In this document: positions 1,137 through 57,454 of the stretch, in pieces
How positions within the stretch are numbered: the first letter of the stretch is position 1
Layout: each line of letters starts with the position of its first letter
Virus record (IMG/VR): IMGVR_UViG_3300037010_000365
Coordinates: 17,962 to 81,961 of that record
Strand: one strand, 5' to 3'
From: a virus
Length of the DNA stretch: 64,000 nt
Translations under genes and position numbers: made by a program
The notes under the pieces: model-generated
Database searches by the model: none
Told to the model about the DNA's origin: nothing
What the model saw: only the letters and a program-made list of their open reading frames with translations

Positions 1137-1838
1137 ATGTTAGGTTTTGATTACTTCTATAATGAATCAATTAAGAATATGATTGTTACATTTGGATCGT
1201 TGTTTAATGAAGTATATATTTCAAGAGCAAGAAAAGATACTAATTCAGTGTTGATTAAAGTTCCGTTGCACTACGGTGATCAATCTAAAGTATATATGTA
1301 TAGTAAATCTGGTAACAACCCATTTAATTCAATTTGGCCTAGAATGGCGTTTGATTATGGTATCGGTGCAGTTGATGATCAACGTAAAACTAGCAGAACG
1401 ATTATACATAACTTTGGCAAATCGGTTAATAACACTGGTGAATGGTCGTCACGAAACTTCATTCCGTATGATTTTACATTCAATTTGTATATTGGTGCAA
1501 GTGATATCCAGGACGGATTGCAAATTGTTGAGCAAGTACTACCATTCTTTCAACCAGAATTAACTGTTAAGATCAGACCACTAAAAGATTTTCCAGATTT
1601 TATCGCAGATGTTCCTATTGAATTGCTAAGCGTTACTACTGATTATGAAGCTGACGGTGAAATTGAAGCCAGGGAATATTATAACTGGACTCTTAGTTTT
1701 AATCTAAAGGGGTTCCTATTTAGTCCAGTCATTAAGGATGCTTATAAAGTAATTGATGCTTATGACATTAACCTTAAAGACTTCAACTTACTACAACAGG
1801 ATGCTAAGGATATGGTTGCTAAGAGTGGTATAATTTAA
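1137..1838 (+). CDS. 15: Tail sheath stabilizer / tail completion protein gp15
   Basis: 233 residues (T4 gp15 is 272). The protein caps the tail tube and sheath and forms the interface with the head neck. The N terminus (GFDYFYNESIKNMIVTFGSLFNEVYISR) resembles the gp15 start, in which an FYN motif and a short helix precede a strand carrying basic residues, and PLHYGDQSKVY matches the next conserved strand. The stop codon overlaps the next start (TAATG). The genes on either side (gp14 before, terminase after) support the call. Confidence 0.88.
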   Translation: MLGFDYFYNESIKNMIVTFGSLFNEVYISRARKDTNSVLIKVPLHYGDQSKVYMYSKSGNNPFNSIWPRMAFDYGIGAVDDQRKTSRTIIHNFGKSVNNTGEWSSRNFIPYDFTFNLYIGASDIQDGLQIVEQVLPFFQPELTVKIRPLKDFPDFIADVPIELLSVTTDYEADGEIEAREYYNWTLSFNLKGFLFSPVIKDAYKVIDAYDINLKDFNLLQQDAKDMVAKSGII

Positions 1839-2221
1839 TGAATTTATTAATGTTTAGAATTCCGTTATGGATTGTTGGAGTTGTCTTTATAGCAATGTCG
1901 ACACAGATAGTATCTCTTACATACGATCTAAACAGAGCAGCAGATAAATTAGATAAAGTCAATGAGATGTACACAACAGCTAAGAATAATAATGAGGTGT
2001 TAGTTGCTTCAATATCTGATCAAAATACTGCTATTGATAAGCTTAAGCAGTTGAGTGCGCTGCAACAAAAAGAATTAGATGCGAGAGTGCTAGAAGCTAA
2101 TAGATTAATGGATCTTAATAACAAGGCCGTTAACACAATTAATAATGTCAAGGTCGATACGACAGGTGAAGGGAGTATTAAATGGCTATCAGAACAGTCG
2201 CGTTCATTATCTCAATGGTAA
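1838..2221 (+). CDS. Inner-membrane spanin (Rz-like)
   Basis: 127 residues with one N-terminal membrane segment (IPLWIVGVVFIAMSTQIVSL, about 8-27) and then a long charged helix with heptad character, the architecture of i-spanins such as Rz. The last 40 nt overlap the start of a lipoprotein gene in another frame, the classic overlapped Rz/Rz1 arrangement. Spanins fuse inner and outer membranes in the last step of lysis. In T4 the spanins lie next to pnk, not among the head/tail genes, so the location is unusual. No sequence identity to a named spanin is claimed. Confidence 0.75.
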   Translation: MNLLMFRIPLWIVGVVFIAMSTQIVSLTYDLNRAADKLDKVNEMYTTAKNNNEVLVASISDQNTAIDKLKQLSALQQKELDARVLEANRLMDLNNKAVNTINNVKVDTTGEGSIKWLSEQSRSLSQW

Positions 2222-2469
2222 TAGCATTGCTGCTTTTGTCTGGATGCACCACTCAGCGTGAACCAGTGATTCGGGGTGTTAGAGTTGATGTACCTATCGC
2301 TGTTGAATCTCCGAGTGTCCCTGACAGACCTCTACCAACATTGCCAATAAGTGATATAACAGATGGCTCACCGAATGATGTTGTTGTTAAAAAGTATGCA
2401 ACTAGCATTGTTATCTTAAAGAATGAGATAAATTGGTATAGGTCTGTGATCTACAAGGATAAGCATTAA
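2182..2469 (+). CDS. Outer-membrane spanin lipoprotein (Rz1-like)
   Basis: 95 residues. The N terminus is a lipoprotein signal: a hydrophobic stretch (VAFIISMVIALLLL) followed by lipobox LLSGC, so Cys22 would be lipidated after cleavage. The mature part is proline-rich at first (SPSVPDRPLPTLP), as in many Rz1 proteins, and ends in a helix that could pair with the i-spanin. The start lies inside the i-spanin gene, a 40-nt overlap. The gene ends on TAATG, overlapping the small terminase start. Confidence 0.8.
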   Translation: MAIRTVAFIISMVIALLLLSGCTTQREPVIRGVRVDVPIAVESPSVPDRPLPTLPISDITDGSPNDVVVKKYATSIVILKNEINWYRSVIYKDKH

Positions 2470-2843
2470 TGTTTGGATCCTTACAACAACGGTTTAACGC
2501 AGAACCTATGGAATACACAATATTACCAAGCAAAACTAGCAATAAAGTTGCAGTATCAACTGAAGTAGTTGATACTTATATTGAAGATGAGCTTAAAGAT
2601 ACAGTAACACAGATTAATGATGCAGCGGATAAAATACTAAACTTGGCAAAGACAAGTGAGCAACCTAAAGCCTATGAGGTTTATGGTACGCTACTAAAGA
2701 CTAAAATTGACGCGTTAAAAGAACTAAATAATATCAGAAAAGGTACTGAAAAGCAGGTTGCTGGCGTTATTAATAATACGCAGATAAATGCGTCAGGTAC
2801 CAATATCAACGAAATATTAAAGGCGATGCGAACACAACAATGA
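2469..2843 (+). CDS. 16: Small terminase subunit gp16
   Basis: 124 residues (T4 gp16 is 164). The small subunit recognises viral DNA and stimulates the large terminase ATPase. Central helices (NDAADKILNLAKTSEQPKAY and VYGTLLKTKIDALKELNNIRK) match the gp16 core pattern of an AAK helix, a SPR/QPK-type turn and a second helix ending in LNNIRK/LHKDMK. It starts on the TAATG of the spanin gene and overlaps gp17 by ATGA, implying translational coupling. Confidence 0.85.
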   Translation: MFGSLQQRFNAEPMEYTILPSKTSNKVAVSTEVVDTYIEDELKDTVTQINDAADKILNLAKTSEQPKAYEVYGTLLKTKIDALKELNNIRKGTEKQVAGVINNTQINASGTNINEILKAMRTQQ

Positions 2844-3331
2844 GTAAAAAAGACATACCCTGGGGTAAATTTGATTTAGCATCAAAGCCAGATGATTCTG
2901 TGCTGAACATAGAACCTGATCAAGAAGGGTATTACCATGACGCTGCAGGTGAACGGTTTTCATTCAATGGAAATAGAACGCTTAGACCTGCTCATGTTAG
3001 AATGCACTTAAATGAATATCATATACAGGAAATCGCTAAGTGCGCAGAAGATATGAGATATTTCATTTTTAATTATTGTAAAGTACTAACAAGTCGCGGA
3101 TGGCGTACACCAGATCTCAGAGATTATCAAGAAACATACCTAAAAACAGCGCTAACAGATAATAGAATTGTGCTACTCCAAGGCCGGCAATCAGGTAAAT
3201 GCCAAAATTATAACACGATTATAAATATTCGTAATAAACACACCGGAGAAGTTGAAGCACTCTCTGTTGGTGAATTTCATGAACGAATAAGGAACAAAAA
3301 TAGTGATCAAACTAAAGAAGTCGATTGTTAA
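2840..3331 (+). CDS. 17: Large terminase gp17, N-terminal fragment ending in an intein N-part
   Basis: 163 residues. The first 120 residues are the terminase N-terminal region, ending exactly in the Walker A motif (LLQGRQSGK). T4 gp17 has SRQLGKT at this place. At residue 121 the sequence switches to an intein start: Cys1, then NTIINIRNKHTGEVEALSVGEF, the usual block A followed by the IRN-KTGE-type strand. The frame stops 43 residues into the intein. The rest of gp17 is in another frame from 3453. Without splicing in trans, or a frame repair, no complete P-loop can form, so this break matters for an essential packaging motor. Confidence 0.88.
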   Translation: MSKKDIPWGKFDLASKPDDSVLNIEPDQEGYYHDAAGERFSFNGNRTLRPAHVRMHLNEYHIQEIAKCAEDMRYFIFNYCKVLTSRGWRTPDLRDYQETYLKTALTDNRIVLLQGRQSGKCQNYNTIINIRNKHTGEVEALSVGEFHERIRNKNSDQTKEVDC

Positions 3332-3812
3332 AACATTTAAAATAATATCAGCACCGATTAAACCGTATGATATTATTCCACAAGAAGTTGATTATATATC
3401 GCTATGGGTTTAATACTACAGATTGCGTTTGACATTAGTTCGAGTATAGTAAATGAATTTATCTGATAACACTTACCGTAAATTCACTGAAGTATATGAT
3501 GTTAGTGATTATGAAGTCCTATCTCATAACGGTTGGGTAGATATAACACAATCAAATCAGACTGTAGAGTATGAGGTGTACTTATTAGAATTAGAAAATG
3601 GTTTATCTCTAGAATGTGCTGATACCCATATTTTGATGACTAATGATCTAACCGAAGTATATGCAAAAGACAGTTTGGGTTCGTTGATATACACTAAATC
3701 AGGTCCGTCTAAGGTAATATCGGTTAGCAACCTAGGCTACTCTGAGCGTATGTATGACCTATCTGTAGGTGGTGATCATACGTATTTCACAAATGATATA
3801 TTGTCACATAAT
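3200..3812 (+). other. Intein 1 in terminase Walker A, split into two reading frames
   Basis: The intein begins at Cys (3200-3202), directly after the P-loop lysine, and ends at the Asn codon 3810-3812 in the motif DILSHN. The next extein residue is Thr, which completes GKT. The C part has the penetrated block B-like strand (GLSLECADTHILM) and block F/G (MYDLSVGGDHTYFTNDILSHN). Bases 3329-3452 do not continue either frame: frame 2 stops at 3329 and frame 3 has stops at 3411, 3447 and 3450 before ATG 3453. The two pieces give 43 + 120 residues, about a mini-intein's worth. This is either a split intein or an intein broken by mutation or indels. Confidence 0.8.
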
Positions 3813-26692: not shown

Positions 26693-26769
26693 TCCTCCGG
26701 TAGCTCAACTAGTAGAGCAGTTCTCTCATAAAGGACCGGTTGCAGGGGCAGAGCCTGCCTGGAGGACCA
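26693..26769 (+). tRNA. tRNA with CAT anticodon, likely tRNA-Ile2 (lysidine type)
   Basis: Acceptor TCCTCCG/TGGAGGA, then a CCA end encoded in ACCA-like form. D-arm TAGCTCAACTAGTAGAGC. Anticodon stem-loop GTTCT-CTCATAA-AGGAC with CAT. The T-arm is odd: GCAGG/CCTGC around GGCAGAG, lacking TTC, with one extra base before the acceptor. A second CAT tRNA at 32321 is a standard tRNA-Met. This one lies just upstream of a TilS-like gene, whose enzyme converts the CAU of tRNA-Ile2 to lysidine-AU. Identity is inference from context. Confidence 0.6.
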
Positions 26770-26909: not shown

Positions 26910-27515
26910 ATGAGACTAGCTTGCAAACTACCTCATGATTGTTATATTGCGTTTAGCGGGGGTTCTGATTCATCTGCTCTAACACATTTCGCTTTATCAC
27001 ATCCTAAGCGCAAAGTTGCGTTAGTATATGTTGTTTATCAAGACTTCAACCACGTAGATTCTGAACTGGCGTATGTAACAACTGCAGCTAAAGAATATAA
27101 TCTAGATTTGATTTTATACTATGCTGAATTAAATCCAGGTAACCTAACAAAAGAGCAGCATTGGTCTATTCAACGCAACAAGTTCTTTAACACTCTTGAT
27201 AAACCAGTATTAACCGGTCATAATTTAGATGATGCGTTAGAGTGGTTTATGATGACATCAACAAGAGGGAATATGATTGGTAAGTTAATGCCAATTATTA
27301 ACAAAAATGTTCAGCGACCTTTGTTATTCACTAACAAACAAACTGTAATGAAATATATCGATAAACACGATATTAAATACTTTTACGATATAACTAATAG
27401 CGACACCAGCATTGCTCGCAATGAGATTAGGCACAACGTAATTCCTAGTCTGGTTAAGATTAACCCTGGAGTTTACAGGTCACTTATTAGACGGTACGGT
27501 AACATACCGGGCTAA
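26910..27515 (+). CDS. tilS: TilS-like tRNA(Ile)-lysidine synthase
   Basis: 201 residues, shorter than cellular TilS (about 320 or more), so only the core N-terminal domain. PP-loop SGGSDSS at residues 16-22 binds ATP. TGHNLDDALEWFMM matches the HxxDD-x-x-E motif. ARNEIRHNVIPSL near the end is the strongly conserved TilS signature (R-N-x-I-R-H-x-x-x-P). It adds lysine to C34 of tRNA-Ile2 so that it reads AUA, a codon common in AT-rich phage genes. The phage CAT tRNA lies 140 bp upstream. Confidence 0.85.
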   Translation: MRLACKLPHDCYIAFSGGSDSSALTHFALSHPKRKVALVYVVYQDFNHVDSELAYVTTAAKEYNLDLILYYAELNPGNLTKEQHWSIQRNKFFNTLDKPVLTGHNLDDALEWFMMTSTRGNMIGKLMPIINKNVQRPLLFTNKQTVMKYIDKHDIKYFYDITNSDTSIARNEIRHNVIPSLVKINPGVYRSLIRRYGNIPG

Positions 27516-27626: not shown

Positions 27627-27695
27627 GGTACTGTATCTTAGTTGGTCAGAGTGGTAGATACATGGTCGTTGGTTCAAGCCCAACCAGTCCTACCA
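27627..27695 (+). tRNA. tRNA-like element lacking an anticodon arm
   Basis: A D-arm-like hairpin with a 7-bp stem (TGTATCT/AGATACA) and a good T-arm (GTTGG-TTCAAGC-CCAAC), then CAGTCCTACCA, with no anticodon arm between them. The 3' CAGTCCT matches the orphan 5' half at 26570. The 9-mer AGTCCTACC is then repeated in tandem three times up to 27713. Either a decayed tRNA or a tRNA-like small RNA. Confidence 0.4.
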
Positions 27696-28129: not shown

Positions 28130-28916
28130 GATTAACAATAAACAGTCGATTCGATTGATATTATATTATTAATCAAATCGACACTCTCGAGATAATGCAA
28201 CCTTTACGAGGTTCGAGAGATAAAGTAGCACAATCCATGACGTGTCTTATGGTATAGTAGAAGAGTTTAATTCTCTTTCTAGTTTCGGTGACAGACATAA
28301 TGACAAACGTTTCAAGCCTGGAGTTGCGCGAAAACTAATAGCATAGAGTTTGGATGCCTCGATAGGTGCTCGTAACACCGGTTACGTGAAAATTGTGATA
28401 CTCCGACCCGAAGTATATCTAATCTATGATGTTTATTTGTTTTTCAGGGAAATCCAGAAAAACATTAAATGGCGCAAGGAAATAACAGCTACTGCTGTCG
28501 CCGAATAAACTTCTTATCAGATATATAGATACTAGTGAAGATGGATTTGATCACCATCAACGCCGGAAGGGTGCATAGTTCAAAATCGCGAGATTACGAA
28601 AAAACTTGTTGTATAGTAAATGCTGTATAGAAACGTTAGACCCACAGTCTAAAAGTCTGCTTTAGCAACAGTTTCATGGCGACGGTTATGAAATAGTTTA
28701 ACCAAAATACAACAGTCAACTGGAAAGACTTAGAAAATAGTACCAGCGTGAAATGCGAATGTTGCAGACGAAACGTGCAAGCTGGAGACATAACCAGCAT
28801 CAACATGAAAGAGTAGGACATGAGGTATACTCATGAGATACGCATAAATTAATGAAGATAGCGCTAAAGCGTTCTTCGAGTATGTTTGTAATAACTTCAA
28901 AACCAATAACATAAAA
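28130..28916 (+). ncRNA. Candidate large structured non-coding RNA
   Basis: Nearly 800 nt without credible genes, inside the tRNA region. It contains many successive hairpins: 28145-28182 (12-bp, one mismatch), 28184-28219 (CTCTCGA/TCGAGAG), 28438-28464 (TGTTTTTC/GAAAAACA), 28471-28502 (GGCG, CAGC/GCTG, CGCC), 28636-28652 (TTAGAC/GTCTAA), 28743-28785 (CCAGC/GCTGG with inner TTGCA/TGCAA) and 28819-28835 (CATGAG/CTCATG). Giant ornate RNAs such as GOLLD are known from phages beside tRNA arrays and have this size. Family and strand are not proven. Confidence 0.5.
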
Positions 28917-28921
28917 TAATT

Positions 28922-28951
28922 GTTTACTTTTCCATCAAGATAGTATATAAT
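28922..28951 (+). promoter_or_regulatory. Early promoter, tRNA leader unit 3
   Basis: GTTTACTTT, 18-nt spacer, TATAAT, then the same leader hairpin (AAGGAAGC ... GCTTCCTG) and the Y-RNA-like element. Confidence 0.75.
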
Positions 28952-29023
28952 TATTACAAGTTAAGGAAGCTAACAGCATAAATTAGAAATTATTTTGGTT
29001 TAATTAAATGCTTCCTGTATAAG

Positions 29024-29121
29024 TTAACTTTGTCGGCTAGTATCTCAACCGCCTTCTAAGCGGTCGTTAATCGAGTAATTGGAGTATGTAGGTTCGAACC
29101 CTATCTAGCCGACAAAGTTAA
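29024..29121 (+). ncRNA. Y-RNA-like / tRNA-like element with 17-bp terminal stem
   Basis: The ends TTAACTTTGTCGGCTAG (29024-29040) and CTAGCCGACAAAGTTAA (29105-29121) are perfect reverse complements. Inside are an anticodon-like hairpin (ACCGC-CTTCTAA-GCGGT) and a canonical T-arm (GTAGG-TTCGAAC-CCTAT), but no D-arm and no CCA end. A normal tRNA has a 7-bp acceptor stem. Bacterial Y RNAs (YrlA) combine a long terminal stem that binds Ro60 with a tRNA-like module. The Ro60-like gene begins 167 bp downstream. Alternative: an aberrant tRNA-Arg (TCT). Confidence 0.55.
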
Positions 29122-29287
29122 TTTGAAATGAAAATATGAGAATTATACGGGATATTGTGGCTATATTAGCGATAGATAACCGAATATTATTTCATAAACC
29201 CATTTGATTCTCACACAACTCTAGTTATAATGATTACACACTGCGGTGCCACTCGAAAATCTACTAATCCTGAAAGGAACCTATATC

Positions 29288-30731
29288 ATGACAACATTTA
29301 CACAAGCGGTTGAATCAGCAAACAAGAAAGGTCACACAAAGACAGAAAATGGAATGAAGACCCGTAAATCTTCATTAAGTTCGGTTGTAGACTTTTTCTA
29401 TGGAGTTGGTGGTAATCGAGCTAATCCAGAAAATTCATTGAAACTTTTTACAGCAGCATTACAAGAAGATGTTGATTTGGCAATTCGTGTGTTATTGTGG
29501 TCTCGCGATGTTCGTGCTGGTGCAGGGGAACGTAACCAATTTCGAATCATGTTGCAATATTTGGCGATGAATGAATTCGATCTAGGTAAGCGGGTTTTAA
29601 CAAAAATTCCTGAACTCGGGCGGTGGGATGACATTCTAACTTTAATCGGAACACCATTAGAACATGAAGCATTGGAAATGATTTCTTCTGCTCTGAATGC
29701 TGGTAATGGATTGTGTGCTAAGCGGATGCCTAGAGAGAAGTCTGCTCATAAATCTACAGCATTGAAGATTATGAAGTATATGGATCTAAAACCAACTCAA
29801 TATCGTAAATTATTGTCACAAAATACGGAAGTTGTTGAACAATTAATGTGTGCTAACGAATGGCCGGTAATTAACTATTCTCATGTTCCATCTATAGCAG
29901 CTAAGATGTATTCTAAAGCATTTGCGAAACGAGATTCATTACGATACGAAGAATACTTGACAAAGTTGATAAAGGGTGATACTGATGTCAAGATTAACGC
30001 TGGTGCGATTTTCCCCCACGATGTTATTTCTTCAATTTGGGATCATACGACTAAATCAGAAGAAATGCGAGTTCAGGCTCAGCGGGATGCGTTACCAAAC
30101 TTTATGGAAGGTAAGGAATATACTATATTACCCCTGGTTGATGTTTCTGGTTCGATGGGATTCAACCTCAGTAAATCGAATACAACTGCGCTACAGGTTG
30201 CCGTGTCGCTTGGGCTGTATATTTCAACGAAAATCAGGGTGCCTTCAATGGTTTAATTTGTACATTTAGCACAGCTCCGAAGTTACATAAGATTTATTCT
30301 AACGGTATTAAGCAACAGTTGGAAGAAGTCAAACGTTTGGATTGGGGATGGAGACGAATATTGAAGCTGCATTTTCAGAAATACTGAAAGTTGCTACTAA
30401 AAATTCTGTACCACCATCAGAAATGCCAAACGTTATTTTGATTTTGTCTGATATGCAGTTCGATGAATGTATTAACAGCGGAGATTCGCTGAGCGCAAAT
30501 TCAATGATTCGTGAAAAATACAAAGAAGCAGGATATGAAGTTCCAAATATTGTTTTCTGGAATCTGAAGACTTCTAACGGTGTACCTGTTAAGATGGGTA
30601 CGAGCGGCACCGCTTTGGTGTTAGGGTTCAGTCCATCTATTCTGAAATCGGTATTAACATCTATAGAAGATATGACACCAGTTGGTGTGATGATGAAGAC
30701 TATTATGAAAGATTGTTATTCAATTGTTTGA
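29288..30731 (+). pseudogene. Ro60/TROVE-like (HEAT repeat plus vWA) RNA-binding protein, frame broken
   Basis: The first frame gives 322 residues from ATG 29288 to 30256 and the second runs 30342-30731. Adding one A to AAAA near 30229 and one G to GGGG near 30345 restores a single protein of about 480 residues. The N part has a helical repeat domain (WSRDVRAGAGERNQFRIML, IPELGRWDDIL, KRMPREKSAHK, YRKLLSQNTEVVEQLMCANEWPVINYSHVPS). The C part is a vWA domain with MIDAS motif DVSGSM. This HEAT-vWA layout matches Ro60/Rsr and the related DUF2828 proteins that bind misfolded RNAs and Y RNAs. Both breaks are at homopolymers, so sequencing error is possible. Confidence 0.65.
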
Positions 30732-30753
30732 AATAAAATAATATAAAATAATC

Positions 30754-30783
30754 ATTTACTTTTATCGGTCGAATGATTATAAT
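30754..30783 (+). promoter_or_regulatory. Early promoter
   Basis: ATTTACTTT, 18-nt spacer, TATAAT. The leader AACACGTT ... AACGTGTT can form a hairpin. No intact gene follows directly. Confidence 0.6.
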
Positions 30784-30904
30784 GAACACGTTAAGGAAAC
30801 TAACAGTAATAACATCCAACGTGTTATCTAGGTTGAGCCTTTATGAGTCGATTATATAAGTATTTGGTTAAATTGAAACTACTTCAAATCAACTAAGCAC
30901 ACTA

Positions 30905-51293: not shown

Positions 51294-51950
51294 ATGATAC
51301 AACATATTAAAGATAACAATACGCTTCTGCAGCTATTCTTAATTCTGGACAGCATTGCTCAAGATGTATGTTTAGTTGGCGGTAGTGTACGAGATTCTTT
51401 AATTAGTGAATACTATAATATACCAGTAATCATTAAAGATTTTGACATAGTACTAAACGGTGATCTAGATATAATTTATAGCACGCTTGTTAGTAATGGT
51501 TGGAAAGTATCCGAAGCAGGTAAGCAATTTCTGGTGATGATCGCATCAAAGAACGAACAATCATTTGAAATTGCTTTATACAGAAAAGATGGTACTTATA
51601 CAGATGGTCGCCGTCCTGATTCGGTAGACGTTGGTACAATTTATGATGATGCTAATCGCCGAGATTTTACAATCAATGCTTTGTATTATGATATTTTACA
51701 TGGTGTGTATATAGACCCAACTGGTCAAGGTATAGAACATATTAAACAACGTAAACTTCAATTTGTTGGCAGCGCCAAAGCTCGTATTATGGAAGATAAA
51801 CTTAGAATCATGAGAGCTTATCGATTTGCAATAACAAAGGGGTTTTCAATGGATAATAAAACTCATAGCGTTATACGACGGTATTTCGAAGACATGATTA
51901 AAAGCGTGCCATCAGCACGAATTATGCAAGAATTAGATAAAATGCTTTAG
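51294..51950 (+). CDS. CCA-adding enzyme / tRNA nucleotidyltransferase head domain
   Basis: 218 residues, about half the size of cellular enzymes. Covers the class II polymerase-beta head and neck: VGGSVRD (28-34), DFDIVL with the metal Asp pair (49-51), RRDFTINALYYD, and KLRIMRAYRFAITKGFS. Lacks most of the C-terminal body/tail. It could repair or add CCA to phage tRNAs that do not encode it, such as the relics near 29 and 33.5 kb. Confidence 0.85.
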   Translation: MIQHIKDNNTLLQLFLILDSIAQDVCLVGGSVRDSLISEYYNIPVIIKDFDIVLNGDLDIIYSTLVSNGWKVSEAGKQFLVMIASKNEQSFEIALYRKDGTYTDGRRPDSVDVGTIYDDANRRDFTINALYYDILHGVYIDPTGQGIEHIKQRKLQFVGSAKARIMEDKLRIMRAYRFAITKGFSMDNKTHSVIRRYFEDMIKSVPSARIMQELDKML

Positions 51951-53718: not shown

Positions 53719-55341
53719 ATGAAAACAATTCACGTTAGAAAACGCTCAGGTGAATTAGAGCTTCGCGACGATGATAAAATCAATAAGCTGGTACAGTTTG
53801 CTTGTGAAGGTGTAAATGATGTTTCAGCGTCAATGGTTGTTATTCAATCTAAAGTGAAGTTTTATGATGGTATTCCAACTGATGATATTCACGAAGCATT
53901 AATTAAAACCGCAGCTGATTTAATCACAGTAGCAACCCCAAACTATCAACAAGTTGCGGCTAAGCTAATTTCTTATAAATTACGAAAAATTGCATATCGT
54001 ACTTATACACCGCCTACGTTGTTAGATCATATCAATCGTGTGGTTAGTTTAGGATTCTACGATAAGGCTATTCTAGAACTATACACCGAAGACGAAATTA
54101 ATAAGCTAGATAAGGTTATTAATCACGGGAATGACGATTTGTTTACATACGCGGCTATGAAACAATTTGAAGATAAGTATCTCGTTAGAAATCGTTCAAC
54201 CGGTGAAGTACTAGAAACCCCTCAAATGGCTTACATTCTAGTAGCTATGACTCTATTTTCCATGGAAGACGCTAGTTGCAGAATGGAATTGGTTAAAGAG
54301 TATTATAAAGAAATCTCAACAGGTATCAAGTCAACAATCAGTTTACCTACGCCAATTAGCGCAGGAGTTAGAACACCTACACGCCAATTCAGTTCATGCG
54401 TAGTTTTAAAAGCAGGTGATTCAATTGACTCCTTGAATGCTACAACATCAGCTATTGTGAAGTACGTTTCTAAACGAGCTGGCATTGGCGTTGATTTTTC
54501 AGCTGTACGTCCTAGTGGATCCCCAATTCGTGGGGGTGAAGCAACACATACAGGAGCCATTCCGTTTATTAAGTATATCCAAGGTGGTGTTAAGAGCAGT
54601 TCACAAGGTGCTATTAGAGCAGGCGCTGCTACGCTTTACATACCAGTATGGCATCGTGAAATCGAAGACTTAATTGTTATTAAAAATAACAAAGGCACTG
54701 AAGATAACCGAGCTAGAGGGTTAGACTACGCTATTCAATTAAACGGACACTTCTATAAGAAAGCAATGGCTCGCGAAGAATATTGTCTATTCAATCCTAA
54801 CGAACATCACGACTTATATGAAGCATTCTTTAACGATCAAGATTTGTACAGCACCCTGTACGATAAACTATCGAAGAAGAAAGGTGTTAAGAAAGTAGAT
54901 GCATTCACATTGTTGACTAATATCATCACTGAAAGAGCAAGCACAGGTCGTATCTATATTATGAACGTTGACCATGTGAATAAACAAACTTCACATAAAT
55001 CAACAATTTATAGTTCAAATCTTTGCTTATCTGGTGAAACCATAGTTACCATTAAACAAGACGGTGTTGCTAATCAAGTATCAATGAAAGAATTGGATGA
55101 AATTTTCACAAATCATAAAAATATTATGATTAAGTCGTATGACGAAAATACGGATAGCGTAGTATGGACATTGGTAGAAGCTTCAGCAATGACATCTGTG
55201 TCAGCTAAGGTTGTGAAAGTAACTGATTCGTCAAGCGGCCAATCCATAATTTGTACGCCTGACCATGAAGTTTATACCTCAAACCGTGGATACGTTAAAG
55301 CTGGTAATTTATTAAGCGATGATAAATTAGTTTTATGCTAA
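53719..55341 (+). CDS. nrdA: Ribonucleotide reductase large subunit NrdA, N-part fused to split-intein N-half
   Basis: 540 residues. Residues 1-435 are class Ia NrdA: N-terminal ATP-cone (VRKRSGELELRDDDKI), QFSSCVVL with the redox Cys equivalent to E. coli Cys225, GIGVDFSAVRPSGSPIRG and RGLDYAIQLN. After SSNL the next residue should be the thiyl-radical Cys, but an intein N-half starts instead: CLSGETIVTIKQDG ... SIICTPDHEVYTSNRG ... DDKLVLC, 105 residues, then stop. The rest of NrdA is encoded beyond an endonuclease gene. Only protein trans-splicing can give whole NrdA. Confidence 0.93.
   Translation: MKTIHVRKRSGELELRDDDKINKLVQFACEGVNDVSASMVVIQSKVKFYDGIPTDDIHEALIKTAADLITVATPNYQQVAAKLISYKLRKIAYRTYTPPTLLDHINRVVSLGFYDKAILELYTEDEINKLDKVINHGNDDLFTYAAMKQFEDKYLVRNRSTGEVLETPQMAYILVAMTLFSMEDASCRMELVKEYYKEISTGIKSTISLPTPISAGVRTPTRQFSSCVVLKAGDSIDSLNATTSAIVKYVSKRAGIGVDFSAVRPSGSPIRGGEATHTGAIPFIKYIQGGVKSSSQGAIRAGAATLYIPVWHREIEDLIVIKNNKGTEDNRARGLDYAIQLNGHFYKKAMAREEYCLFNPNEHHDLYEAFFNDQDLYSTLYDKLSKKKGVKKVDAFTLLTNIITERASTGRIYIMNVDHVNKQTSHKSTIYSSNLCLSGETIVTIKQDGVANQVSMKELDEIFTNHKNIMIKSYDENTDSVVWTLVEASAMTSVSAKVVKVTDSSSGQSIICTPDHEVYTSNRGYVKAGNLLSDDKLVLC
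55024..55338 (+). other. Split-intein N-half in NrdA
   Basis: Codons for 105 residues from Cys1 (55024-55026) to the last Cys before TAA. Contains block A (CLSGETIV), block B with T-P-D-H and the Y-T-S-N-R-G-Y-V-K-A-G-N-L block. Length matches known natural split inteins, where the break lies between blocks B and F. Confidence 0.92.
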
Positions 55342-55347
55342 GAGATT

Positions 55348-55383
55348 ACTCCGCTCATTAAATACTATTTTAATGAGCGGAGT
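55348..55383. promoter_or_regulatory. 15-bp hairpin covering the endonuclease ribosome site
   Basis: ACTCCGCTCATTAAA ... TTTAATGAGCGGAGT, perfect 15-bp stem with a 6-nt loop. The GGAG at 55379-55382, the only Shine-Dalgarno for ATG 55393 (10 nt away), is locked in the 3' arm. Could block translation of the endonuclease from long transcripts or act as a terminator-like structure. Confidence 0.7.
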
Positions 55384-55392
55384 CCTCTATCA

Positions 55393-56352
55393 ATGAACTA
55401 TGAAAGACTGTATAATATTTTTATTGATTATTGTAGAGTCACACCGCCGACACAGCGGATTGAGCGTAGAAATAAACATGATGAGAGATTATTTCAAGAT
55501 CATTTATACCTTGAAAAGCATCATATTATACCTAGACATAACGGTGGAAGAGATACAGATGAAAACCTTGTGGTATTACTACCAGAAGAACATTATCTCG
55601 CGCATTTGATAAGGTTTAAAGCTTACAACGATAGAAATGATTTTTTAGCAATTAGATTCATGGTTAATGGATATAACAATAGCGAAAGAAAGTTGCTAAT
55701 ACCTAAAAAGGTAACATCAAAAATTATAGGTAGATTTAAACAAAAGATTTATTATTTTAGGAAGAAAAACACATGGCATACTGATGATGGTATACAACGT
55801 ATATCTAGAGCTAGGACTGGAAAGGTATCAGTAGTTGATTCAATAACAAAAGAAGTAATTGGTTCAATAGATAGAAATCATCCTAATATCATTTCTGGAA
55901 AATGGGTACACCATACTAAAGGTATGCTTAGTGCAATTTCGATAGAAACAGGTAAAACTGTTAGACTCACGACATCAGAGTACAGAAATAATAAAGAGTT
56001 GTATAAACCATTGCTGGATACTAGCGGCGAAGCCAATCAGAATTTTTCTGGGTTTAGCGATGATGATCTTATTAATTTATATTATGAATTTTGTGGTAAA
56101 CTAATTTCGCTAGGGTCATCAATTATTCCATCGTACTCAACGTCAATACGCTATCATAGATCAATTGGGGTTTATGTGCCTATTACTTATACTAAATTTA
56201 GGTTTAACGGTAATTATGACCAATGCGTTCGTGATATGCATGACGAAATGTCTAAAAAATATAAGCTTCCACTTATGAAAATTAGGAGTAATAAAGACAT
56301 AAAATATATAAATGATTTAATCAGGAGATTAAAATTAAATGATAACAATTGA
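55393..56352 (+). CDS. HNH homing endonuclease inside the nrdA break
   Basis: 319 residues. HNH domain at about 41-75: LEKHHIIPRHNGGRDTDENL and LLPEEHYLAHLIRF, giving the H-H, N and H of the beta-beta-alpha-metal site. The C-terminal half has repeated DNA-recognition-like segments (GKVSVVDSITKEVIGSIDRN, then GKTVRLTTSEYRNNKELY, as in NUMOD-type modules). AT-rich compared with nrdA. The gene overlaps the start of the NrdA C-part by 14 nt. It probably cuts unfractured nrdA of related phages at the insertion site. Confidence 0.88.
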   Translation: MNYERLYNIFIDYCRVTPPTQRIERRNKHDERLFQDHLYLEKHHIIPRHNGGRDTDENLVVLLPEEHYLAHLIRFKAYNDRNDFLAIRFMVNGYNNSERKLLIPKKVTSKIIGRFKQKIYYFRKKNTWHTDDGIQRISRARTGKVSVVDSITKEVIGSIDRNHPNIISGKWVHHTKGMLSAISIETGKTVRLTTSEYRNNKELYKPLLDTSGEANQNFSGFSDDDLINLYYEFCGKLISLGSSIIPSYSTSIRYHRSIGVYVPITYTKFRFNGNYDQCVRDMHDEMSKKYKLPLMKIRSNKDIKYINDLIRRLKLNDNN

Positions 56353-57454
56353 ATATTTAGATTATGAGATACCAGTATATGATATTACTGTAGCAGATAC
56401 TCATAATTTTTTCGCTAATGGTATTTTAGTGCATAACTGCCTAGAAATTGCCGCTCCTACAGCTGACCTAACTGAGTTTAGTAATTTACGTACTGAAGTT
56501 GCAAAAGATACCGGTTTATATTCAGATGACATGCCAATGGAACAGTTTAGAACTCGTTTTGGCGAGATTAATCTTTGTACGTTATCTGCTATTAATTGGG
56601 GTAATATTAAGAAGCCAGGGGACTTTGAACGAGTTTGTCATCTAGCACTCAGAGCGTTGGATAACTTAATTACATACCAAGATTATCCGATGATTGCAGC
56701 CCACGTACCTGCCATTAATCGACGTAACCTTGGTGTGGGTATTATCAACTTAGCGCACTTCTTAGCAACTCATAACGTTAAGTACGGTGAAGAAAAGGCA
56801 TTAGAGTTGGTTGATACATACGCTGAAGCAATGTATTACTATCTGATGAAAGCCAACGTACAATTAGCTAAAGAACGGGGACCTTGCGGCTGGTATAAAG
56901 ACACTCATTACTCAGACGGTGTGTTTATACATGAATTACGAAATGCTAATGTTGACTCTCTAATTCCACATAATCCAAAAATGGATTGGGAATCTCTTAG
57001 AGCTGATATGATTAAATATGGTGTACGTAATTCACAAGTAGTAGCATTGATGCCTTCAGAGACATCAGCAGTTATTTCAAACGCTACTAATGGCATTGAA
57101 CCTCCACGGAAAATCATTACAGTAAAAACGTCAAAAGACTCTGTAATGAAACAATTGGTACCTAAACCTAAACTAAAATATGACTTATTATGGGATCAAC
57201 CAACCCCAGCAGGTTATATTAAAACGGTTGCTGTGTTACAAAAATACAATGATCAATCAATCTCGGCAAATACGTCTTATAACCCTGATAATTTCAACGG
57301 TCCTATTCCAATGACTCAACTTCTTCAGGATATTTTGATGTGTTATAAGTTTGGGGTAAAAACAGCTTACTATCATAATACAATGGTAGAAATGACTGAT
57401 GATATTACAGAAACAAAATCTGAAGAATCAGATTGTGAATCTTGCAAAATTTAA
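56339..57454 (+). CDS. nrdA: NrdA C-part fused to split-intein C-half
   Basis: 371 residues, ATG 56339 with CAGGAG upstream. Residues 1-33 are the intein C-half: MITIEYLDYEIPVYDITVADTHNFFANGILVHN in one-letter form across blocks F and G, ending His-Asn. Residue 34 is the +1 Cys, which is also the catalytic thiyl-radical Cys of NrdA (C-L-E-I, E. coli Cys439). INLCTLSAINWG carries the second redox Cys (Cys462), and LMPSETSAVISNATNGIEPP the active-site loop. C-terminal CESCKI is the redox tail. Confidence 0.94.
   Translation: MITIEYLDYEIPVYDITVADTHNFFANGILVHNCLEIAAPTADLTEFSNLRTEVAKDTGLYSDDMPMEQFRTRFGEINLCTLSAINWGNIKKPGDFERVCHLALRALDNLITYQDYPMIAAHVPAINRRNLGVGIINLAHFLATHNVKYGEEKALELVDTYAEAMYYYLMKANVQLAKERGPCGWYKDTHYSDGVFIHELRNANVDSLIPHNPKMDWESLRADMIKYGVRNSQVVALMPSETSAVISNATNGIEPPRKIITVKTSKDSVMKQLVPKPKLKYDLLWDQPTPAGYIKTVAVLQKYNDQSISANTSYNPDNFNGPIPMTQLLQDILMCYKFGVKTAYYHNTMVEMTDDITETKSEESDCESCKI

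Follow-up and report, generated by a model that had tools for sequence, protein, structure and literature searches.

A large family of phage arginine and isoleucine tRNAs whose D-loop apparently lies 3' of the anticodon arm

Introduction

Few features in biology are as strongly conserved as the order in which D-arm, anticodon arm and T-arm follow one another. Among non-standard tRNA architectures, allo-tRNAs (8/4 and 9/3 folds) alter the lengths of helices, and permuted tRNA genes alter the order of the gene and mature to a normal cloverleaf; in D-armless mitochondrial tRNAs a short loop stands in place of the D-arm and the contact between D-loop and T-loop is lost. The phage RNA family described here shares a non-standard architecture with allo-tRNAs and permuted tRNA genes, but differs from both in the order of elements within the RNA itself. 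It resembles the D-armless tRNAs of animal mitochondria, as extracts of two accounts portray them (PMC2797822, PMC7730189), in that the D hairpin is missing from both, but it keeps a GG-containing D-loop, which has moved. Compared with bacterial tRNA-Arg(UCU) and tRNA-Ile (RF00005), with which it shares the 7-bp acceptor stem, the 5-bp anticodon and T-arms, the UUCRANN T-loop and the identity bases, the family lacks the D hairpin and has instead a helix around the anticodon arm (helix 2), with D-loop-like bases 14-20 located 3' of it.

Two further systems resemble the locus studied here. YrlA Y RNAs likewise feature a tRNA-like module, a long stem and a Ro60 neighbour, as seen in this window, whereas the window RNA matches no Y-RNA model and has behaved as a tRNA in all tests run. 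Ro60/TROVE proteins, such as the Ro60 of Thermus phage phiLo (9l5y), share the predicted fold of a homologue of the neighbouring gene, but in sequence that neighbour is a DUF2828/DUF7788 protein, and its gene in the window is broken. A search of open-licence PMC full texts, a corpus outside which most subscription papers fall, returned no description of the relocated-D-loop architecture; judging from sequence, the novelty would lie in structure, as a new strand order, while by function the RNA would be a tRNA.

The window is the whole stretch of DNA that was analysed, 64 kb out of a virus record of 81,961 bases, and its portal, sheath and terminase genes are those of a tailed phage. The parts of the RNA and of the neighbouring gene described below all lie on the plus strand.

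Structure of the RNA element in the window

The first-pass annotation had described a perfect 17-bp stem enclosing an anticodon-like hairpin and a T-arm, with neither a D hairpin nor CCA, and that description holds. Positions 29024-29040 are the exact reverse complement of 29105-29121; the anticodon arm at 29048-29064 has 5 bp and a 7-nt loop (CUUCUAA, with the anticodon UCU at 29055-29057); the T-arm lies at 29088-29104 (GUAGG UUCGAAC CCUAU); there is no D hairpin, and CAA directly follows 29112. The long stem is composed of an acceptor stem, with strands CGGCUAG (29034-29040) and CUAGCCG (29105-29111), and an extra 10-bp stem formed by a leader half (29024-29033) and a trailer half (29112-29121). 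The tRNA-Arg(UCU)-like RNA with its relocated D-loop spans 29034-29112, from acceptor base 1 to the discriminator A73 at 29112. Between acceptor stem and anticodon arm lie U8, A9, U10 and the 5' strand of helix 2, C11 U12 C13 (29041-29046 in all), which pairs with GAG at 29073-29075 and thus holds the anticodon arm inside; helix 2 is short, with 3 bp plus a U10.U25 mismatch. A D-loop-like segment, UAANUGGA, is positioned 3' of the anticodon arm. The stretch UAAUUGGA at 29076-29083 would correspond, by analogy, to U25 A14 A15 U16 U17 G18 G19 A20, an assignment based on two covariations seen across the family, one between base 15 and base 48 (here U48, at 29087), the other between base 20 and the anticodon.

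The window RNA hence displays the 7-bp acceptor stem, the 5-bp, 7-nt anticodon arm and the UUCRANN T-loop of a tRNA, and fails to display the D hairpin expected between acceptor stem and anticodon arm. By analogy of position, a Levitt pair 15-48 and a GG facing the T-loop are also present, the GG having been forced in most scans, and the tRNA-Arg identity set (A20, C35, U36, A73) is complete. ARAGORN did not report the element. Its one Rfam match, to the tRNA family RF00005 (34.1 bits), passes over the D-arm and needs an insertion of approximately 20 nt in the variable region. Our own model of the family, R1, scores it at 79.1 bits, a value that is not independent because the window RNA is a row of the alignment from which R1 was built. 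The minimum free energy is -36.7 kcal/mol, against a mean of -18.55 for shuffled sequences (z -5.87). In the minimum-energy fold of this one sequence the interior has other pairs, and for the inner structure we relied on comparative evidence. A chance hairpin was considered and ruled out by the covariation within the family and by the fold energy relative to shuffles.

Distribution of the family

A blastn search with 151 bases around the element matched 133 of 50,697 phage records, and the family is present in at least these 133. The matches fall in Justusliebigvirus, Vequintavirinae, Ounavirinae and Klebsiella phages of ~110 and ~145 kb, and further in large Salmonella and Klebsiella phages and in Vibrio and Pectobacterium phages; pattern scans place family members in hundreds of viral contigs as well. 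Other tRNA genes surround many of the copies. Most of the matches listed carry no annotated feature, or are labelled tRNA-OTHER, tRNA-Undet or tRNA-TERM. The window RNA, in short, belongs to a large and mostly unannotated family of phage tRNAs for arginine and isoleucine.

From 223 distinct sequences we set aside 17 (cloverleafs, truncated members and members failing the pairing filter), one of which, L157 (U20, A73), was restored for the count of identity bases. A misread cloverleaf, L234:5440, was then removed to leave 205 parsed members, although it is still contained in the 206 rows used to count CCA and long stems. Two of the pattern scans, designed without C at position 35, let C35 in by a shift.

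Members also occur in bacterial genome contigs, with true members at six or more loci (L270, L278, L285, L302, L326, L339) among the matches listed, which comprised 119 stretches; a second row from L326, with anticodon GAG, is a misread cloverleaf and was rejected. The idea that bacteria regularly carry this tRNA class on their chromosomes is unsupported: among 295 genomes of one family a single one had a match at E<=1e-10, and among 295 of one order three had, the starting genome being counted both times. In two Rhodobacteraceae (L278, 6990-7146; L302, 1344-1499) a relocated-D tRNA-Arg(UCG) immediately follows a cloverleaf tRNA-Arg with anticodon GCG. In Devosia elaeis (L339) a relocated-D tRNA at 3559-3635 lies ~270 bases from a gene at 1732-3288 that looks, by eye, like a tyrosine integrase.

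Covariation of the helices

Because three of the scan patterns forced helix 2, covariation was assessed on rows obtained by blastn and by the other pattern scans, in which the pair C11-G24 was itself imposed, as were UAA and UGGA for most rows. In the resulting alignment of 82 non-redundant members (A1), RNAalifold recovered, unaided, the acceptor, anticodon and T helices together with helix 2 (C11-N-N with N-N-G24), which directly encloses the anticodon arm. Paired cells amount to 99.3%, against 63.1% after shuffling, and none of 500 shuffles reached the observed value. Helix 2 is paired in 82/82 members, and at its two variable pairs both sides have changed in 45 and 38 members; C11-G24 varies as well (to A-U, U-A and G-C) in members where the scans had not forced it. 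When the partners are slid by 1-3 columns, pairing falls to only 38-46%.

These results bear on another reading, namely that a canonical tRNA has decayed into a pseudogene and lost its D-arm. The missing D-arm is what such a reading would predict, and the labels given to annotated relatives (tRNA-OTHER and the like) agree with it. The same architecture is nonetheless kept, with compensatory changes, across unrelated phages; covariation of this kind contradicts decay, and we give the pseudogene next to no credence.

Relocated D-loop and amino-acid identity

Downstream of helix 2, nearly all members carry the segment UA(A/G)N(U/C)GG(A/U), followed in most by the T-arm after 4-5 nt. In canonical numbering the segment would be U25, A14, R15, N16, Y17, G18, G19, N20. 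Among the 290 parsed members from the matches listed (85 from the predictive scan described below and the 205), bases 15 and 48 form A15/U48 in 255, G15/C48 in 25, A15/C48 in 8, G15/U48 in 1 and G15/G48 in 1, which amounts to covariation of the Levitt type (Fisher ~5e-28 on the first four pair classes, for members among the matches listed). The predictive scan alone, whose pattern imposed a purine at 15 and a pyrimidine at 48 and left their match free, gave A-U 59, G-C 19, A-C 6 and G-U 1 among the matches listed (Fisher 8e-13).

Base 20 tracks the anticodon. A review of identity elements (PMC9976931) gives A20, C35, U/G36 and A/G73 for bacterial tRNA-Arg; for bacterial tRNA-Ile it gives A73, and counts U20 as one of the core elements. 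Members with the arginine anticodons found in the family (UCU, CCU, ACG, UCG and CCG) have A20 in 199/199 cases, most of these rows coming from scan patterns that imposed it, and 28 of the 199 depart from A/G73, with U73 in 24 and C73 in 4. The isoleucine anticodons GAU and UAU turned up among members found with R1, and the seven members with them have A73 in 7/7 and U20 in 6/7; the exception, L204 (UAU), has an A20 that its scan pattern demanded. In rows where base 20 was not forced, A20 accompanies arginine anticodons in 11/11 and U20 isoleucine anticodons in 5/5.

The predictive scan kept the same architecture, required a base other than A at position 20 and left the anticodon and base 73 open; its pattern was built on the few isoleucine members already known and is to that extent not independent of the idea. 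Among the matches listed it produced 92 distinct sequences, of which 85 passed the pairing filter and seven were dropped as weakly paired (six with UAU or GAU, one misparsed). The anticodons of the 85 structured members, among the matches listed, are UAU (65), GAU (13) and CAU (7), with no arginine anticodon; again among the matches listed, U20 is present in 85/85 despite C and G being allowed, and A73 in 85/85 despite base 73 being free. The canonical tRNAs of the same stretches offer a reference: tRNA-Arg has A after GG in 66 of 68 parsed (78 in total, 10 unparsed) and tRNA-Ile has U after GG in 40 of 59 parsed (71 in total, 12 unparsed). Since bases 15 and 48 covary and base 20 follows amino-acid identity, the segment behaves as a D-loop.

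At least seven relocated-D tRNAs (L553, L572, L584 and others) have CAU with U20 and A73, and could be for Ile2 or Met.

The Ro60-like neighbour

The RNA had been interpreted as a Y-RNA-like element beside a phage Ro60-like protein, and the two halves of that proposal fare differently. The protein half stands, on the predicted fold of a homologue. The next gene matches DUF2828 and DUF7788 in Pfam and contains DVSGSM, as had been claimed for a protein of the Ro60/DUF2828 type. In the window it is broken over three frames, with changes near AAAA at ~30230 and near GGGG at ~30340, and the two frame changes could be sequencing errors: an N-terminal piece (29288-30256) holds the helical repeats and the start of the vWA domain, a C-terminal piece (30342-30731) holds the rest of the vWA domain, and the stretch between them is in the third frame. 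It is the intact homologue L241, and not the broken window gene, that shows the Ro60/TROVE fold, with helical repeats and vWA domain predicted at a mean pLDDT of 72.5. The ten best Foldseek matches of this model are all Ro60/TROVE proteins, that of Thermus phage phiLo among them, and the top two Ro60 structure matches have VIA Z scores of 14.8 and 13.8. The Pfam TROVE family itself was not matched: above cut-off, the pieces from the window (E<=1) and four homologues (E<=0.01) hit DUF2828 and DUF7788 alone. Viral contigs yielded no relative when queried with the DUF2828 piece from the window, and tblastn located DUF2828 homologues in 678 of the 50,697 phage records.

The RNA half of the proposal, in which a phage RNA of the YrlA type would bind the Ro60-like protein next door by its long stem, the tRNA-like module being a mimic, does not survive. 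In its favour are the predicted Ro60 fold of the neighbour, the window's 17-bp stem, and the recurrence of the RNA upstream of DUF2828 in L071 and L166 (0.2-0.8 kb in these two and the window; within ~3 kb in L151 and Felixounavirus). The comparison with Y-RNA covariance models that had been proposed as a check, however, gave no Rfam Y-RNA match even at E<=10 in 28900-29300, nor did any Rfam Y-RNA family appear in the whole window at the gathering threshold. The DUF2828 gene is present in only 2 of the 14 named phage records that carry the RNA and missing from the other 12, and 197 of 206 family rows lack the long stem, which in the nine that have it shows no tie to the DUF2828 protein. The logic of anticodon and identity bases and the exchange with tRNA-Arg are likewise foreign to a Y RNA, and we regard this reading as highly improbable. 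The recurrent neighbourhood may reflect some link between the two, but is explained well enough by location, as both RNA and DUF2828 gene sit in tRNA regions. In one of three other DUF2828 phages a tRNA lies ~3 kb upstream; in the remaining two no tRNA is annotated within 3 kb.

CCA is encoded in 117 of the 206 family rows. A leader:trailer stem of 12-15 bp occurs in 9 of the 89 members that do not encode CCA, the window RNA included, whereas a leader:trailer helix of more than 3 bp occurs in 0 of the 117 members that do. We infer that the long stem is a precursor feature of a subset of the family, trimmed before CCA addition. The ligase, Pnk and CCA-enzyme genes listed in the first-pass annotation are confirmed in the window, as two RNA ligases, a PNKP and a head domain of CCA/poly(A) polymerase, with the candidate CCA enzyme encoded at 51294-51950.

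Exchange with cloverleaf tRNAs

In Felixounavirus and a related Mooglevirus, phages Barry, MET-P1-301, pEP20, ph2-2 and Michonne carry a canonical tRNA-Arg(UCU) between tRNA-Ile and tRNA-Ser, and REP9 and JLBYU32 carry the relocated form at that same site, with near-identical flanks (the flank alignment covers REP9, Barry, Michonne, pEP20 and JLBYU32). A canonical tRNA-Arg(UCU) is absent from each of ten complete phage genomes with the RNA, three of which have 23-25 other tRNAs, and from the window. Stretches with a relocated UCU tRNA also have a canonical one in 6/68 cases, against 12/17 in the others (Fisher 6e-7). Across the 85 stretches in which a canonical tRNA-Arg or tRNA-Ile occurs, the relocated and the canonical forms share an anticodon 7 times, against 21.4 in shuffles, of which 0 in 20,000 were as low; a cloverleaf with the same anticodon coexists in seven stretches. 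Some contigs hold two or three relocated tRNAs with differing anticodons, such as L202 (UCU, CCU, UCG), L238 (CCG, CCU, UCU) and L032 (UCU, ACG). Counted within the phages examined, AGA makes up 0.8-1.6% of codons.

A tRNA mimic, charged or bound without decoding and acting as a decoy for host tRNA nucleases or as a regulatory RNA, could have an unusual topology such as this one, and phage tRNAs are reported, in extracts of PMC10264068 and PMC11555353, to counter tRNA-targeting defence. A decoy, however, need not keep such sets as are found here: five arginine anticodons plus three ending in AU, with U33 and A37 conserved across the family, and an avoidance of cloverleaf anticodons and a replacement of the cloverleaf allele that point to decoding. 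We consider a mimic very unlikely.

Interpretation and implications

We mark the RNA as a tRNA because of its anticodons, its identity bases, the allelic exchange and the complementarity of the tRNA sets. With four helices, the 15-48 covariation, an intact T-loop with an opposing GG, bases 20 and 73 that track Arg or Ile anticodons, and exchange with a cloverleaf tRNA-Arg(UCU) at one locus, all from sequence comparison, it is in our judgement highly probable that 29034-29112 is a working tRNA-Arg(UCU) with a relocated D-loop, which would be charged and would decode. It appears that a tRNA can be wired in a second way, with the D-loop following the anticodon arm.

In this reading C11-U12-C13 and G22-A23-G24 close directly around the anticodon arm, replacing the D hairpin, and the D-loop bases A14-A15-N-U-G18-G19-A20 lie on the strand joining helix 2 to the T-arm. 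We propose that two limbs, a stack of acceptor stem and T-arm and an extended anticodon arm, would form the L-shape, with the UGG of the joining strand docking onto the T-loop to make the elbow contact. ArgRS would charge the RNA by A20, C35, U36 and A73, the ribosome would decode AGA via the anticodon UCU, and the leader:trailer stem would be processed before the candidate CCA enzyme encoded in the window might add CCA.

Our favoured guess is that phages keep the relocated form to evade host factors that read the D-arm. In a fuller version, which we put forward tentatively and hold to be somewhat more doubtful than probable, this would be a second translation-competent topology: hundreds of phages would have tRNAs for Arg and Ile, and perhaps for Ile2 or Met as well, with the order of D-loop and anticodon arm swapped and the tertiary core kept, and the exchange with cloverleafs would occur because the swapped form is hidden from host factors, defence nucleases for instance, that read the D-arm or the body of the tRNA.

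Should charging and decoding by these RNAs hold true, there would be a second strand order that leads to the tRNA fold, and one could ask which parts of tRNA recognition depend on the D-arm as a hairpin and which on the loop bases alone. The two alleles at one Felixounavirus site constitute a ready natural experiment. Even in well-studied coliphages (phi92, wV8 and other Felixounavirus) the family is overlooked or wrongly labelled by annotation tools, and the phage tRNA sets on which studies of codon usage and anti-defence rely are therefore incomplete for Arg and Ile.

Other features of the window

Several further observations were made in the window. A CAU tRNA at 26694-26766 (42.2 bits), missed by ARAGORN, has a T-loop that is not UUCRANN and is followed by a TilS-like PP-loop gene (PF01171) at 26910-27515, possibly a tRNA-Ile2 with its own lysidine synthetase. 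A truncated-looking tRNA at 27627-27692 (Rfam, 33.3 bits) has a three-fold repeat at its 3' end. At 53719-57454 the large subunit of a ribonucleotide reductase is interrupted by intein-splicing pieces that flank an HNH gene. Finally, the intergenic stretches 28922-28980 and 30740-30800 are similar, each with promoter-like boxes followed by GTTAAGGAA(G/A)CTAACAG, as judged by eye, and are perhaps a repeated phage promoter or leader.
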